A stretch of 23,319 bases of DNA from Gemmatimonadota bacterium. GTDB taxonomy: Bacteria; Gemmatimonadota; Gemmatimonadetes; Gemmatimonadales; Gemmatimonadaceae. A program made the position numbers and the translations under genes. The DNA is taken from positions 1 through 23,319 of the forward strand of contig PLMM01000297.1 in assembly GCA_003142495.1 (NCBI GenBank). The letters are read 5' to 3'. Below, in pieces: positions 7,690-13,920 of the stretch; within the stretch, counting starts at the first letter, position 1, and every line of letters starts with the position of its first letter. The notes beneath the pieces are model-generated. The model was not told where the DNA came from. It did not search any database and saw only the letters and a program-made list of their open reading frames with translations.

Positions 7690-8397
7690 TCAGGTGCCGC
7701 CGTACCATTCGTAGCCCTGATCGCTCCAGTAGCCGCCGTTCCGCTTCGGAAGGAACACGACCTTCGTCAGATACTTCGTGTTCTTGTAGCCGAGCTTCAC
7801 GGGCGAGTGCACACGCGCGGGGGCGCCGTGCGCCATGCCGAGCAGATGGCCGTCCATCGCGAAAACGATGAGCGTTTGCGGATGCATCGCGCTATCCATG
7901 TCCCAGCTCTCGTGGTAGCCGTCGTCGAACGACTGAAAGTCGACGTAGGCTGCGTCCGGCTTCACGCCCACGACGCGCGCGATGTCGCTGAGGCGCACGC
8001 CCTGCCACACGGCCACCGCGTTCCACCCTTCCACGCAGAAGTGATCGACGCGCTGGCTGCGAAAGGGAAGCTTGCGCAGATCATCGAGAGTGAGCTTCAC
8101 CGGATTGTTCACCGCGCCACTCACCTCGAGCGCCCACGGGCCGCGCACCTTCTCGTCCCACACGGGCACCGTTTTGGAGATGAAGTACGAGGGAAAGGCG
8201 GTGCCGGCGATCTTCGCACCGCTCCGCGCGCTGTTCATCGCGGAGTGATGAAAGAGCGAGCGCTCAATCCCCTCGTTCTTTCGCTCGGCGAGATCGAGCA
8301 ACCGCTGCGCGCGCGGCGAGCGATCGACGCTGCACGCGGCGAGAAAGGCGGCCGTGAGCGAGAAGCCGCCCGTGCTCAGAAAGCGTCTGCGGTCCAC
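7690..8397 (-). CDS. Tat-exported MsrP-like molybdopterin oxidoreductase
   Basis: A 235-aa protein of the sulfite-oxidase fold (oxidoreductase molybdopterin-binding domain). The N-terminus is a twin-arginine signal (MDRRRFLSTGG) running into a lipobox-like LAAC, with Cys22 as a possible lipidation site. The domain begins at PWALEVSGAVNNPVKLTLDDL; C121 in DHFCVEGW is the expected molybdenum ligand. The later DAMHPQTL-like block (SAMHPQTLIV), HGAPARVHSPVKLGYKNTKY and the C-terminal GYEWYGGT also fit. It lacks the C-terminal dimer domain of true sulfite oxidases, as MsrP does. MsrP reduces methionine sulfoxide in periplasmic proteins. Start GTG 8397 is one base after the cytochrome stop. Third gene of the operon. 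Confidence 0.87.
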   Translation of the reverse strand: MDRRRFLSTGGFSLTAAFLAACSVDRSPRAQRLLDLAERKNEGIERSLFHHSAMNSARSGAKIAGTAFPSYFISKTVPVWDEKVRGPWALEVSGAVNNPVKLTLDDLRKLPFRSQRVDHFCVEGWNAVAVWQGVRLSDIARVVGVKPDAAYVDFQSFDDGYHESWDMDSAMHPQTLIVFAMDGHLLGMAHGAPARVHSPVKLGYKNTKYLTKVVFLPKRNGGYWSDQGYEWYGGT

Positions 8398-8398
8398 G

Positions 8399-9118
8399 TC
8401 ACTTCTCCTGCGTCGGGCGATGAGCCCAGCGCGGAAGCAGGTGATAGAACGGGCGCGCGTTTCGCGCCTCGGGAGAGAGATCCTCGCGATAGCCGCCGGT
8501 GACCATCGATTGCATCGAGTACGGATCGACCGCGAACACCATGAAGACGTGCGCGAACGACAATGCGATGAGGCCGACCATCGTCATGAAGTGCCAGTAG
8601 CGCGCCCATACAAAGCCGCCGAAGAGCGCGGTGATCCATCCCAGCTGTACCGGCTTCCAGATCGCGAGCCCGGTGAGCACCTGCACGATCGCGAGAACCG
8701 GCAACGCGAAGTACGTCACCTTCTGCATCGCGTTGTGCTTCCCCTGCTTCGGGTGCGTCTTCGAAACGAACAGGTAGAACTTGAGCATCGCGAGCGCATA
8801 GCGCGCATCGCCGCGGCGCGGCACGAGATCGCGCCACTCGCCGTGCAGATAGATGAACGTGAGGTAGACGAGCCCGTTCAGCACGAGAATCCACATCAGT
8901 GCGAAGTGCCAGTGGCGCGCGCCGCCGAGCCATCCGCCGAACGTCAGGTAATCAGGGATTGCCTTGTGCTCGAACGGATAGCAGCAGAACTGCTCCCCGC
9001 GCCGGGCGAACGCAGGGTATGCGTTGAAGATGCGGAGGCCACTTCCCACCATCAGCGTCAGCGCGATCGCATTGACCCAATGCGTTACGCGGACGATCCA
9101 ATGGTGGCGGCCCGTCAC
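8399..9118 (-). CDS. Cytochrome b561-type membrane electron carrier
   Basis: A 239-aa membrane protein of the b561/Ni-Fe-hydrogenase cytochrome b type (PF01292-like). Four helices are predicted near residues 12-32, 68-92, 130-153 and 174-197. Candidate haem His are H13 (RVTHWVNA), H69 or H71 (ARHWHFAL), H176 (RYWHFMT) and H190 (SFAHVFM), enough for two b haems. It would take electrons from the quinol pool and pass them outward, here most simply to the molybdopterin protein encoded one base downstream. This plays the role that MsrQ/YedZ has in E. coli, but the sequence is of a different cytochrome family. Start GTG 9118 overlaps the MsrB stop (GTGA). Confidence 0.87.
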
Positions 9119-9756
9119 GGCTTGTGCGTCGTCGGCTTCGAGTCGGCCTTCTTGAACAGCGTGTCGTACTGGCCGTACCCAGCCTTATCGAGCTGGCTCG
9201 CCGGAATGAACTTGAGCGACGCGGAGTTCATGCAGTAGCGAAGTCCCGTTGGCGCCGGCCCGTCGTCGAAAACGTGGCCGAGGTGCGAGTTGGCGTGCTC
9301 GGAACGAATCTCGTCGCGCTCCATGCCGAGCGTGCGGTCGGACTGCTTCTTGATGTTCGACGGCTCGAGCGGCTTGGTGAAGCTCGGCCAACCGGTACCG
9401 GACTCGAACTTGTCGGTCGAGCTGAAGAGCGGCTCGCCAGAAACGATGTCGACGTAGATACCGGCCTCGTGATTGTCCCAGTACTCGTTGTGGAACGGCG
9501 ACTCGGTGCCGGCGTTCTGCGTGACATAGTATTGCTCGGGAGTGAGCTTCTTTTTCAGCTCGCCATCGCTTGGCTTCTTGTAGTCCATCTTTTTCACTTG
9601 TGTGGCTTGAGTCAATGTAGTGTCCAGCTGCGCGTCCGTGAGAAAGACCGGCTGGCGCGGCGTATCGTTCGCGGTGCGCGCCGCGGATCGGCTGCTGATG
9701 CTCAGCGCAACGAATCCGATCGTCGCAATCCCGACTGCGATTCCAAGAGTGCTCAT
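9115..9756 (-). CDS. msrB: Membrane-anchored peptide-methionine (R)-S-oxide reductase MsrB
   Basis: A 213-aa protein with an N-terminal signal-anchor (residues 3-22) and a linker, then a complete MsrB domain from about 66: [36 protein letters not shown] (119-126), [12 protein letters not shown] and the catalytic [11 protein letters not shown] (C175). MsrB reduces methionine-R-sulfoxide in proteins. C175 is the only Cys: the zinc-binding CxxC pairs are absent, and the usual recycling Cys is Thr121, as in one-Cys MsrB forms, so the sulfenic acid must be reduced by an outside thiol. It is the first gene of the minus-strand operon; the ATG has AGGA upstream. The anchor predicts action outside the cytoplasm. 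Confidence 0.92.
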
Positions 9757-9926
9757 GTCAGTGTCCTGCGAGAGATGTCCATACCATACTAACGACGCCT
9801 TGGTGTAGGGGGGTTCCGGCCCTGTCAGCCTTCAAATAGCGTTCAAGTCCAGCGTACCCAACCGTGCGTCCTCGCACCATACTATGCGTTAGGGCACTCT
9901 CTTACGCACCCCCAACTGCCGGGCCT

Positions 9927-11051
9927 GTGAATCCTCATTTTGTACGTCCTGGCCGGCTCATTGGATTCATCGGCTTCGCGCTCGCTGGCTGCGGCGCCGG
10001 GCATCCGCAGGGCCGCGGCGCGCTCGCTGCGCCACCAACTCAACCACCCAATGCAATGACAGACAGCGCCATCGACGCGATCCTGGGCCAGTACAACCGG
10101 CCCGGCGTGCCCGGCGCGAGTGTGATCGTGCTCTCGCGGGGGAAGGTGGCGTACGAGCGAGCATTCGGCAGCTCCGATCTCGAGACGCACACCCGCGCGA
10201 CCATTCACACCGACTACCGGCTCGCATCGCTCACCAAGGCGTTCACGGCGATGTCGATCATGCTGCTCGTGAAGGACGGGAAGCTTCGTTACGATGATCG
10301 CGTCATCGATGTCCTCCCCGGCTTCCCCGCGTACGCGCGCGACATTCGCATTCGGCATCTCCTCACGCACACGTCGGGGATCGTCGACTACGAGGACTTC
10401 GTTCCCGACTCGCAGACCACGCAGCTCGACGACGACGATGTGCTCCGCCTCGTGCATCGCACGGACACGCTCAACTTCGCACCGGGCTCCGCCTATCACT
10501 ACAGCAACTCCGCGTACGTGCTGCTCGGCCTCATCGTGCAGCATGCGTCGGGAGTGCCGTTCCCGAAATTTCTGCACGACCGGATCTTCGCGCCGCTGCA
10601 CATGGATTCGACCGTCGCGCACGTGGCGGGCGTTTCGCGCGTGCCCGAGCGCGCATACGGGTACACGGGCGATTCCGCCGGCCACTTCTCGCGCACCGAC
10701 CAGAGCTCCACCAGCGCCACGCTCGGCGACGGCGGCATCTACACGTCGGTGGTGGACATGGAGAAGTGGAGCAATGCGCTCGATCATGCGGCGCTGGTCG
10801 GTGCGGCGGCGATGAACGAGGCGTGGTCGCCGACCCTCTTGACGACGGGAAAGGAGAGCGGGTACGGCTACGGCTGGTTCGTGGCGATGGTGAACGGCGA
10901 GAAGCAGCTGCGTCATCACGGTGAGAGCACGGGCTTCACGAACGCGATCCTCAAATATCCGCGGCGCGAGCTCACGATCATCGTGCTGACGAATCGCACG
11001 GGTGGAGATCCGTGGGACATCGCGGATCGCATCGCGGCTCTGTTTCCGTAG
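9927..11051 (+). CDS. Serine hydrolase, class C beta-lactamase fold, lipoprotein
   Basis: A 374-aa protein from GTG 9927. It opens with a lipoprotein signal (MNPHFVRPGRLIGFIGFALAGC, lipobox LAGC, lipidated C22). The serine hydrolase motifs follow: SLTK (S101-K104), YSN (Y192-N194) and HHG (330-332), as in penicillin-binding-protein-like esterases and D-Ala-D-Ala peptidases (PF00144). LLTHTSGIVDYED and GDGGIYTSVVDMEKW are typical of this group. Whether it acts on peptidoglycan, peptides or esters cannot be read from sequence. A longer version from GTG 9864 would place the lipobox at residue 43, unusually far, so 9927 is preferred. It precedes the sensor kinase gene with a 167-bp gap. Confidence 0.88.
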   Translation: MNPHFVRPGRLIGFIGFALAGCGAGHPQGRGALAAPPTQPPNAMTDSAIDAILGQYNRPGVPGASVIVLSRGKVAYERAFGSSDLETHTRATIHTDYRLASLTKAFTAMSIMLLVKDGKLRYDDRVIDVLPGFPAYARDIRIRHLLTHTSGIVDYEDFVPDSQTTQLDDDDVLRLVHRTDTLNFAPGSAYHYSNSAYVLLGLIVQHASGVPFPKFLHDRIFAPLHMDSTVAHVAGVSRVPERAYGYTGDSAGHFSRTDQSSTSATLGDGGIYTSVVDMEKWSNALDHAALVGAAAMNEAWSPTLLTTGKESGYGYGWFVAMVNGEKQLRHHGESTGFTNAILKYPRRELTIIVLTNRTGGDPWDIADRIAALFP

Positions 11052-11218: not shown

Positions 11219-13144
11219 GTGAACTCCTCCGCCGCGCTCGTCCATCTCCTCGGCTTCTCCGCGGGGATCGTCCTCTACGCGATGCTCGGCGTCATGACGC
11301 TGCGCTCGGGGCGGAGCACCGGCGCATCGGGCGCGCGGGCGATGGACAGAATTCCGCTGGCAACGTCGGGGCTGGGGCTACTGTGGAACGCGGGCGCGCT
11401 GGTCATCTATGGTACGCGCGACCTGGGTGGCGCGCCGAACGCGTGGTTCGAGGCCGCGGCGTTCGCAGCGCTCGGCTTTCTCCCGGCGGTGGTGGTGCAC
11501 TCATCGCTGCAGGCGGAGGAGCGCAAAAGCGCGAGGGTGCTCGTCGCCGCGGCCTACGCACTGAGCGCCATCGGCGCGCTGCTGCAGCTGCGCGCCGCAT
11601 TTCTCCACGAGGAGATTCCATCGTCGCTCGCGCTGACGATGCTCACCGCTGGCTACATCGCGGTCATCGCGCTACTCGCACTCCTCGCGCCGAAGGCTCC
11701 GCGCGCCGGCTGGACGCTCTCGGCCGTCGCGCTGGCGGCATTCGCGGTGATGGCGCTTCACCTCCAGCGGCACACCACCGGCACCGAGAGCGTGCCGATC
11801 GAGCTCGTCGGTCACCACGCATCGCTGCCGCTCGCGCTAGTGATTCTCTACCAGGACTATCGCTTCGCGCTCGCCGACATCTTTCTCAAGCGCGTGCTGA
11901 CGCTGCTCGCCGTGGTGCTGCTCGCGGCATTGCTCTACACCTTCGTGGCGGTGCCGGTGGTGCTCCCCAGTCTCGGCGCGGGGAATGGCGCCTCGTGGGC
12001 GGTGAGCGCACTCATCGCGCTCTGGGTGATCACGGCGCTCGCCTATCCGCCGCTCGAGCGCGCGATCAGCCGATTCGTCGATCGCATCGTGCTGCGCCGC
12101 GCGGACTACGAGAAAGTGCGCGTCGAGGTAGCGATCGCGATCGCCGAGCTGTCGAGCGCATCCGACATTCTCGACGCGGTGTGCGAGCGCGTCGCGCCCG
12201 CGATGTCGGCGCGCGCGGTCACGTGGGCGCCGGTCTCGCAGACACCGAGCCTCGCTGCGCACACCATGAGCCTCGCCACCACGACGCGCGCCGGCGAAGC
12301 AACCGTGCTCGTGCCCACCTCCGACGCGCCGTCGTACCAGCTCGCGGTGAGTGAGCTCACCGGCGGGCGCCGCCTGCTCTCTGGCGATCTCGCGCTGCTC
12401 GAGACGCTCGGGCTCCTCGCCGCGCGTCGCATCGATGCGGTGCGCGTGAGCGATGAGCGTCACCGCCGCGATCTCCGCGAGCGAGAGATCGTGCAGCTAG
12501 CGGCCGAGGCGGAGCTGTCGGCGCTGCGCGCGCAGCTCAACCCGCACTTTCTCTTCAACACGCTCACGACCATCGGCCAGCTTATTCAGGAGGCGCCGCC
12601 GCGCGCGCTCGACACGCTGTACAAGCTCACCGGCCTCCTTCGTGCCGTGCTAAAGCGCTCGGACGGCGGCTTCGTCACACTCGGCGAGGAGATCGAGATC
12701 GTGCGCACCTATCTCGCGATCGAGGGCGCACGCTTCGAGGAGCGCCTCGCGGTGAGCATCGACGTGCCGGAGTCGCTCGCGGAGCTGCCGGTGCCGCCGC
12801 TGGTGCTGCAGCCGCTCGCGGAGAACGCGGTCAAGCACGGGATAGCGCCGATGCGGGCCGGGGGCCGAGTGCGCGTGAAGGCGGAGGTCGAGGGCGACAC
12901 GCTCGTGCTGAGCGTGACGGATAGCGGCACGGTGGTTCCGGCGGCGGAGCTCGAGCGCCGGCGCGGCGCGGGGATCGGGATCTCGAACCTGGAGAAGCGG
13001 CTCGAGCGCTACTATGGAGACTCGGCCTCGCTGGCACTGCGCAGCTCTGTCGAGCGCGGGACGGAGGTGACGGTGCGAATCGCGATGTCTGCAATGCAGC
13101 GAGGCTCCGATGCGAAGCGGGTAGCGCGGGAGCAGATCGCGTGA
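11219..13144 (+). CDS. LytS-type sensor histidine kinase (PF06580)
   Basis: A 641-aa membrane kinase. The N-terminal half has about eight hydrophobic helices (first at residues 5-25, HLLGFSAGIVLYAMLG; last near 235-285). A GAF-like region without clear motifs follows (about 300-410), then a helical stretch (REREIVQLAAEAELSALRAQ) leading to the His_kinase box LNPHFLFNTL with phospho-acceptor H443. The ATPase domain has LAENAVKHG (N536), DSG and GIGISNLEKRL. Such kinases phosphorylate LytTR regulators; the partner is encoded directly downstream, the two overlapping as GTGA (13141-13144). GTG 11219 starts just before the first helix; earlier starts (11012 GTG, an ATG near 11144) lie in non-conserved sequence. 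Signal sensed is unknown. Confidence 0.9.
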   Translation: MNSSAALVHLLGFSAGIVLYAMLGVMTLRSGRSTGASGARAMDRIPLATSGLGLLWNAGALVIYGTRDLGGAPNAWFEAAAFAALGFLPAVVVHSSLQAEERKSARVLVAAAYALSAIGALLQLRAAFLHEEIPSSLALTMLTAGYIAVIALLALLAPKAPRAGWTLSAVALAAFAVMALHLQRHTTGTESVPIELVGHHASLPLALVILYQDYRFALADIFLKRVLTLLAVVLLAALLYTFVAVPVVLPSLGAGNGASWAVSALIALWVITALAYPPLERAISRFVDRIVLRRADYEKVRVEVAIAIAELSSASDILDAVCERVAPAMSARAVTWAPVSQTPSLAAHTMSLATTTRAGEATVLVPTSDAPSYQLAVSELTGGRRLLSGDLALLETLGLLAARRIDAVRVSDERHRRDLREREIVQLAAEAELSALRAQLNPHFLFNTLTTIGQLIQEAPPRALDTLYKLTGLLRAVLKRSDGGFVTLGEEIEIVRTYLAIEGARFEERLAVSIDVPESLAELPVPPLVLQPLAENAVKHGIAPMRAGGRVRVKAEVEGDTLVLSVTDSGTVVPAAELERRRGAGIGISNLEKRLERYYGDSASLALRSSVERGTEVTVRIAMSAMQRGSDAKRVAREQIA

Positions 13145-13920
13145 GCGCGCAACTACGTGTCGTCATCGCGGACGATGAGCGCCCCGCGCGCGCCTTTCTC
13201 GCGCGGCTGCTCGCGCAGTGCGGCGACGTGGAGCTCGTTGGCGAGGCGACCGGCGGTGCGGAGGCGATCGTGCTGATCGAGAGTACGAAGCCCGATCTCG
13301 CACTGCTCGACCTGCAGATGCCGGAGGTCGATGGCCTCGCGGTCGTGCGTCTCGTGAAGAAGGAGCTCCTCCCGCTGTTCGCGTTTGTGACGGCGCACGA
13401 TGCGTACGCGGTGCGCGCATTCGAGGCGAACGCGATCGACTTCCTCCTCAAGCCCGTCGAGCCGGCGCGCCTGCGGCACACGCTCGATCGCGTGCACGCG
13501 CGCCTCGCGCGCGGCACGGATCCGGGCGCGGCCGCGGGGCGCGTACGCGTGGCCGCGGCGCAGGCGGCGGGCGGCGATGCGAGCTATCTGCGCCGCATTC
13601 CCGTGCGCCTCAAGGACGACATCGTGCTCGTTCCCGCTGCGCAGCTGGCGTCCGTCGTCGCCGACGGCGAGCTGCTGCATCTCACCACGATCGAGGGCAG
13701 GCACTACACGATCAACTATCGCCTCAAGGATCTCGCCGCGCGCCTCGACCCGGCCACGTTCGTACGCATCTCGCGGAGCGCGCTCGTGAATCTCGACATA
13801 CTCGCGAAGGTCAGCGCGATGCCCGGCGGCAGCTATCTCGTCACCCTCACGAACAAGCAGCAGCTCGCCGTGAGCCGGCAGCGCGCGCGCGACCTGCGTG
13901 AGGAGCTGCTCAAGCTCTGA
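13141..13920 (+). CDS. LytTR family response regulator
   Basis: A 259-aa regulator. The receiver domain (residues 4-120) has acidic pocket D11/D12, phospho-acceptor D57 (LLDLQMPEVDG), T84 and K104 (FLLKPVEP). After an Ala/Gly-rich linker, the LytTR DNA-binding domain spans about 150-259: IPVRLKDDIVLVPAAQL, ADGELLHLTT, FVRISRSALVNLDIL and GGSYLVTLTNKQQLAVSR, close to the family consensus. It overlaps the kinase gene by four bases, so the two form a two-component system. LytTR proteins bind paired 9-bp direct repeats; such a pair lies 18 bp after its stop, ahead of the TonB receptor gene, which is therefore the best candidate target. Confidence 0.94.
   Translation: MSAQLRVVIADDERPARAFLARLLAQCGDVELVGEATGGAEAIVLIESTKPDLALLDLQMPEVDGLAVVRLVKKELLPLFAFVTAHDAYAVRAFEANAIDFLLKPVEPARLRHTLDRVHARLARGTDPGAAAGRVRVAAAQAAGGDASYLRRIPVRLKDDIVLVPAAQLASVVADGELLHLTTIEGRHYTINYRLKDLAARLDPATFVRISRSALVNLDILAKVSAMPGGSYLVTLTNKQQLAVSRQRARDLREELLKL

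Follow-up and report, generated by a model that had tools for sequence, protein, structure and literature searches.

The window, i.e., the 23,319-nucleotide stretch of contig PLMM01000297.1 from a bacterium of the phylum Gemmatimonadota, carries on its minus strand a three-gene operon that encodes a methionine sulfoxide reductase B (MsrB), a membrane cytochrome b and a molybdenum-cofactor protein (Mo protein). With a probability of roughly 0.7 this operon serves the repair of methionine sulfoxide in the cell envelope, whereby a cytochrome/Mo-protein pair of the YedZ1-YedY1 kind replaces the MsrPQ system and MsrB acts in parallel. The data directly show the gene order, the protein families, the ligand residues, the export and lipobox signals in the sequence, the partner fidelity of the pair, its complementarity with MsrP and the neighbourhood with further Msr genes. 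The operon is composed as follows:

9115..9756, minus strand: msrB, ATG at 9756 to stop at 9115; 213 amino acids; Pfam SelR above cut-off
9115..9118, minus strand: MsrB stop and cytochrome GTG start overlap by 4 bases; putative translational coupling
8399..9118, minus strand: cytochrome b (PF01292), GTG at 9118 to stop at 8399; 239 amino acids; Pfam Ni_hydr_CYTB above cut-off
7690..8397, minus strand: Mo-cofactor protein (PF00174), GTG at 8397 to stop at 7690; 235 amino acids; Pfam Oxidored_molyb above cut-off
9791..9817, minus strand: GGAAC-N-CGTT motif upstream of msrB, kept in the genus; candidate regulatory element

A single base separates the cytochrome stop from the GTG start of the Mo protein, and the three coupled minus-strand genes have the coordinates and spacings given in the preliminary description of this DNA. 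The order MsrB-cytochrome-Mo protein is present in all five genomes of the window's genus that were examined (G000-G004) and the arrangement is therefore not due to chance. The source assembly (G000) comprises 3.2 Mb and is 84.5% complete; gene calls were codon-scored and took the place of discarded longest-ORF (open reading frame) calls. The near relatives that bear organism names are mostly Gemmatimonadaceae or Gemmatimonadota.

In the genus, none of the five genomes, three of which are 68-85% complete, encodes an MsrP above the family cut-off and none shows any match to PF01794, the MsrQ family, in agreement with the absence of msrQ expected beforehand. Among 60 relatives 33 possess an over-cut-off MsrP, and in 33/33 of these a PF01794 protein is encoded within 2 kb (compared by hand). 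It is supported by these data that in the genus the whole cytochrome/Mo-protein pair stands in the place of the whole MsrPQ pair. The original proposal, that a b561-type cytochrome replaces MsrQ, holds insofar as a PF01292 protein is found in MsrQ's place, but it is the entire pair that is swapped and not the cytochrome under an MsrP.

A phylum-wide draw of 298 genomes encompassed 173 genomes from families f1-f3, assigned to the order of the window (presumably Gemmatimonadales), and 125 from outside this order. Presence was scored at E below 1e-50, which includes the partial MsrP of G043 (213 genomes versus 212 by the cut-off in the whole draw), and the pair was scored through its Mo protein, with the Mo-protein fragment of G044 counted as lacking it. 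Within the order, both systems were found in 31 genomes, MsrP only in 79, the pair only in 53 and neither in 10, corresponding to an odds ratio of 0.074 (Fisher p 6e-13, relatedness ignored); one majority vote per genus, with ties broken arbitrarily, yielded p 4e-7 for exclusion over 60 genera. Five genera (g14, g22, g33, g37, g41) each contain an MsrP-only as well as a pair-only species, and these displacements would be natural swap experiments if the repair reading is true. The largely exclusive distribution of MsrP and the pair thus supports the replacement of MsrPQ. In the genomes outside the order the pair was seldom found and exclusion is weak: 4 have both systems, 99 have MsrP only, 4 have the pair only and 18 have neither (hand tally).

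The cytochrome and the Mo protein constitute a conserved pair. Two overlapping sets were analyzed, 100 Gemmatimonadota genomes (30 in the first sets plus 79 loci, 9 of which repeat earlier genomes) and a sample of a named collection made up of the best 80 out of 588 stretches that were confirmed; L097, as an example, is a contig of G004, and loci at contig edges stay in the denominators. The cytochrome gene lies directly upstream of the Mo-protein gene in 96/100 genomes, the exceptions being contig edges in G007, G213 and G103 and a genuine miss in G197, and in 78/80 named loci, the remaining two of which end at contig edges. In G197 the Mo protein (L263, 4030-4731) lacks the cytochrome, and the frame upstream of it is unrelated and begins like a lipoprotein. 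The named loci belong to Gemmatimonadota, Myxococcota, Binataceae, Alpha-, Beta- and Gammaproteobacteria and Nitrospirae, and the source annotations of the pair read hydrogenase or thiosulfate-reductase cytochrome and 'molybdopterin-dependent oxidoreductase'. Homologues of the Mo protein occur in 268 plasmid records, including 58 from Escherichia and 13 from Klebsiella, the weaker matches of which include true MsrP (Azospirillum). Locus L107 (JAICYS010000154.1), labelled Myxococcota, encodes a Mo protein 62% identical to that of the window and, immediately following, an MsrA of the exported type; this record is possibly mis-binned.

MsrA and/or MsrB are encoded within ~5 kb of the pair in 6/80 named loci (L107, L118, L144, L166, L170 and, from the window's genus, L097), while a rough hand estimate that assumes ~3 Msr genes in a genome of 4 Mb gives an expectation of ~0.6 of 80 loci. 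The pair-linked MsrBs have Tat (twin-arginine translocation), lipoprotein-like or plain hydrophobic N-termini (L166 is incomplete), and 7/9 MsrAs near the pair have N-termini of export type as judged by eye, those of L035 and L207 being the exceptions. Exported MsrA or MsrB near the pair was found in at least four further lineages, i.e., Anaeromyxobacter, Acetobacteraceae, a Nitrospirae metagenome-assembled genome (MAG) and an alphaproteobacterial MAG. In Kozakia baliensis, NrsF, an extracytoplasmic function (ECF) sigma factor, msrA and msrB are encoded on one strand and the cytochrome, the Mo protein and a Met-rich MXKDX peptide on the other. Such MXKDX peptides are present near the pair in 2/80 named loci (Collimonas, Enterobacter) and in 4/8 plasmid loci (Klebsiella, Kozakia, Rahnella, E. 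coli); NrsF is present in L193 and, by a single-sequence search, in 2/80 named loci.

These neighbourhoods bear on the possibility that the pair uses quinol to reduce small sulfoxides or N-oxides (free methionine sulfoxide, dimethyl sulfoxide (DMSO) or others) instead of protein-bound methionine, and that protein repair is left to MsrB. The substrate is not told by fold and motif, and YedY from E. coli and from Rhodobacter has weak activity on DMSO and trimethylamine N-oxide (PMC4228395); the activity of YedY is impaired by a C-terminal tag (PMC4228395). However, the Met-rich MXKDX peptides and the NrsF/ECF genes by homologous pairs as well as the mutual exclusion with MsrP speak against a small-molecule reductase, which is unlikely.

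The operon MsrB is, as judged from its sequence, a zinc-less, one-Cys enzyme of the exported type. It consists of an N-terminal hydrophobic stretch, a linker and the MsrB domain at residues 61-194, and with 210.5 bits on TIGR00357 (cut-off 113.05) it is the only one of the three proteins that passes an NCBIfam cut-off. The sole Cys of the whole protein is C175 in RYC, the catalytic Cys, and a Thr aligns with the Cys of SGCGWPSF in the PDB chains 1l1d/3hcg, so it is not of the two-Cys type with a resolving Cys at this position; the one-Cys assignment made earlier was thereby confirmed. The hydrophobic N-terminus fits the description as membrane-anchored, although an anchor is not distinguishable from a cleaved signal peptide. 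A possible twin-Arg signal, read in another frame immediately ahead of the MsrB start, was dropped as it is not kept in relatives. Stand-alone MsrB relatives such as L076-L078 likewise have hydrophobic, signal-like N-termini (by eye), and the second MsrB copy of the source genome (L279) has two CxxC motifs and is without the N-terminal extension. The source genome furthermore encodes two MsrAs.

MsrB is located directly upstream of the cytochrome in 7/100 Gemmatimonadota genomes, namely G000-G004 and, from a second genus, G021 and G129. The gene order noted at the outset is thus shared by relatives but confined to two genera. Two separate recruitments of MsrB are favoured because the operon copies of the genus and of G021/G129 group apart: in the tree the former fall together with a copy from G021 that stands alone, the latter with Anaeromyxobacter, and the two were joined in 0% of 200 bootstrap trees, although a single recruitment is not rejected by the approximately unbiased (AU) test (p 0.071; 0.11 with Anaeromyxobacter added). 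Regarding its narrow distribution, MsrB may have come to lie next to the pair by an accident of gene order in the two genera, both acting independently; this is rather improbable considering that MsrB is kept in 5/5 and 2/2 pair-bearing genomes of these genera and that exported MsrA/MsrB recur near the pair in the other lineages listed above. One relative of the window region 8399-9320, P0141, has a predicted 308-amino-acid protein in which the C-terminal half of MsrB is fused in frame to the cytochrome, which may be a natural fusion, a frameshift or a gene-call artefact.

The cytochrome is classified by fold and family match as an FdnI-like di-haem cytochrome b of the PF01292 kind (85.9 bits, cut-off 30.1). 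Its structure model contains four long helices, which bears out the four-transmembrane b-type cytochrome of the preliminary description, and His 13, 71, 176 and 190 are the likely ligands of two b haems; the four residues are invariant in 94-96 of 94-96 Gemmatimonadota rows and in 78/78 named rows having the columns. A reading as hydrogenase cytochrome, the name used by one source, was set aside, since the protein scores 84.1 bits against a cut-off of 121.5 for the Ni/Fe-hydrogenase b-type cytochrome family TIGR02125. A vicinal Cys pair, C45-C46 (window 8981-8986), lies in the loop that is predicted to connect helices 1 and 2 on the periplasmic side and is present in 45/96 Gemmatimonadota and 15/78 named cytochromes; the idea that it feeds MsrB was not adopted, as most cytochromes with the Cys pair are without a linked MsrB.

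The Mo protein is a predicted Tat-exported lipoprotein with a twin-Arg signal and a lipobox Cys22, the latter being a feature that had escaped the preliminary description. Its assignment to the MsrP type stands in part: the twin Arg is present and the Mo-ligand Cys121 in HxCVEGW conforms to the C-V-E-x-W motif of MsrP, but the protein scores 94.7 bits, far under the MsrP family cut-off of 207 bits (NF003767). That the pair is instead a quinone-reducing dehydrogenase of sulfite or another sulfur compound, in which the Mo lipoprotein oxidises its substrate, the FdnI-like cytochrome feeds quinone and MsrB is incidental, is very unlikely, given that SorA (48.1/600 bits), SoxC (42.5/420) and SorT (33.5/570) score far below their cut-offs with MsrP being the highest of the NCBIfam scores compared, that the sulfite-oxidase dimerisation domain, like any other second Pfam domain, is missing from the Mo protein, that the ligand motif is CVEGW, that E. 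coli YedY (1xdy/1xdq) is the best match in Foldseek, and that the pair is anticorrelated with MsrP and has MsrA/MsrB, MXKDX and NrsF in its neighbourhood. A sulfite dehydrogenase identity was set aside by family cut-offs and motif, while the fold by itself is not decisive. A second, distant Mo-protein match in the source genome (G000:C312:18607-19053) lies inside a 619-amino-acid open frame.

For the envelope repair system, the following mechanism is proposed. The cytochrome would take electrons from membrane quinol and pass them via its two b haems to the Mo lipoprotein, which on the outer face of the inner membrane would reduce sulfoxides of envelope methionines. In parallel, the exported one-Cys MsrB would reduce R-sulfoxides with thiol electrons that DsbD/CcdA may supply by way of thioredoxin-like proteins in the periplasm; the source genome encodes three DsbD-type membrane proteins as possible suppliers. 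The pair, probably of the YedZ1-YedY1 kind, would take MsrPQ's place in the genus, and the operon may be under ECF control. On a wider scale, and put forward tentatively at slightly under even odds, MsrPQ and the FdnI-type cytochrome with its Tat-lipoprotein might be two interchangeable quinol-driven machines for envelope methionine-sulfoxide repair that displaced each other many times, the second of which repeatedly recruited exported MsrB/MsrA, so that Mo and thiol chemistry form one membrane-tethered unit for both epimers. If the repair reading is right, the pair, which is present in several phyla and on some enterobacterial plasmids, represents a second respiratory repair system for oxidised envelope proteins, and the MsrB operon would permit a direct test of how the work on the two sulfoxide epimers is divided.

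A hint at ECF-sigma control is given by the GGAAC-N-CGT motif, which we take to resemble ECF-sigma promoters. It matches the window twice versus 1.15 expected, which is not significant alone, also lies ahead of the operon in the remaining four genomes of the genus, and was found upstream of 15/94 pair loci scanned versus 2.5 expected from mononucleotide shuffles, with related loci counted separately. Further upstream of msrB, at ~9830-9870 of the window, a block TAGTATGG..TTGGGTACGCT is kept in 4/5 genus loci and may serve the divergently oriented gene of a beta-lactamase-family protein (9864-11051). At 11219-13920 a sensor histidine kinase gene is followed, with a 4-base overlap, by a response-regulator-like gene (judged by eye).

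In the Creative Commons-licensed PubMed Central literature, MsrP or YedY was not found together with 'cytochrome b561', the search covering a part of the synonyms. Related systems are described in several papers: Azospira suillum has a hypochlorite-responsive SigF/NrsF-MrpX-YedY1 neighbourhood with YedZ (PMC5748585, PMC4623255), Brucella bcrXQP is induced by hypochlorous acid (HOCl) and contributes to HOCl resistance (PMC8315932), and in a Collimonas paper YedZ1 is the name of a methionine-sulfoxide reductase subunit (PMC12542777). The MsrA/MsrB, MXKDX or ECF sigma/NrsF genes by homologous pairs therefore point to MrpX/YedY1 and BcrXQP, and the pair looks like a member of this published kind, recognised by gene neighbourhood and not by sequence comparison. 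For that reason, the idea of a cytochrome in place of MsrQ is not new in kind; the substitution is real but part of a wider, partly published kind. What seems to be new is that the operon includes an exported MsrB, that the Mo protein has a lipoprotein signature, that the two partners stay together so strictly and that the pair and MsrPQ largely exclude each other.

MrpX/YedY1 and BcrXQP share with the window a Mo protein adjoining a membrane cytochrome b, and, as described (PMC5748585, PMC8315932, PMC4623255), they share with the pair's homologous loci a Met-rich MXKDX peptide and an ECF sigma or NrsF alongside. The window differs in that the genus loci L031-L034 have no MXKDX peptide near the operon, the source genome gives 0 NrsF matches and an exported MsrB is part of the operon. 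FdnI and HyaC (1kqf_C, 4gd3_A) resemble the window cytochrome in fold and in four conserved His, presumably haem ligands there as well, whereas the window cytochrome is partnered by a Mo lipoprotein with the sulfite-oxidase fold. Streptomyces Sco3746, likened by its published description (PMC5449189), also has a membrane b-haem part, a twin Arg and a Mo domain, but it is one fused five-helix protein in contrast to the two genes of the window. Periplasmic MsrAB systems (PilB-type; perchlorate-island msrA/msrB, PMC4623255) likewise place an exported thiol-dependent Msr near a YedYZ-type system, whereas in the window the gene of a one-Cys MsrB overlaps that of the cytochrome. E. coli MsrPQ (YedYZ) finally resembles the window pair in that a membrane b-haem partner goes with an exported Mo protein that shares the fold and the ligand motif C-V-E-x-W; it differs in that the b-haem partner belongs to PF01794 there and to PF01292 in the window, where the Mo protein is a predicted lipoprotein below the MsrP cut-off.
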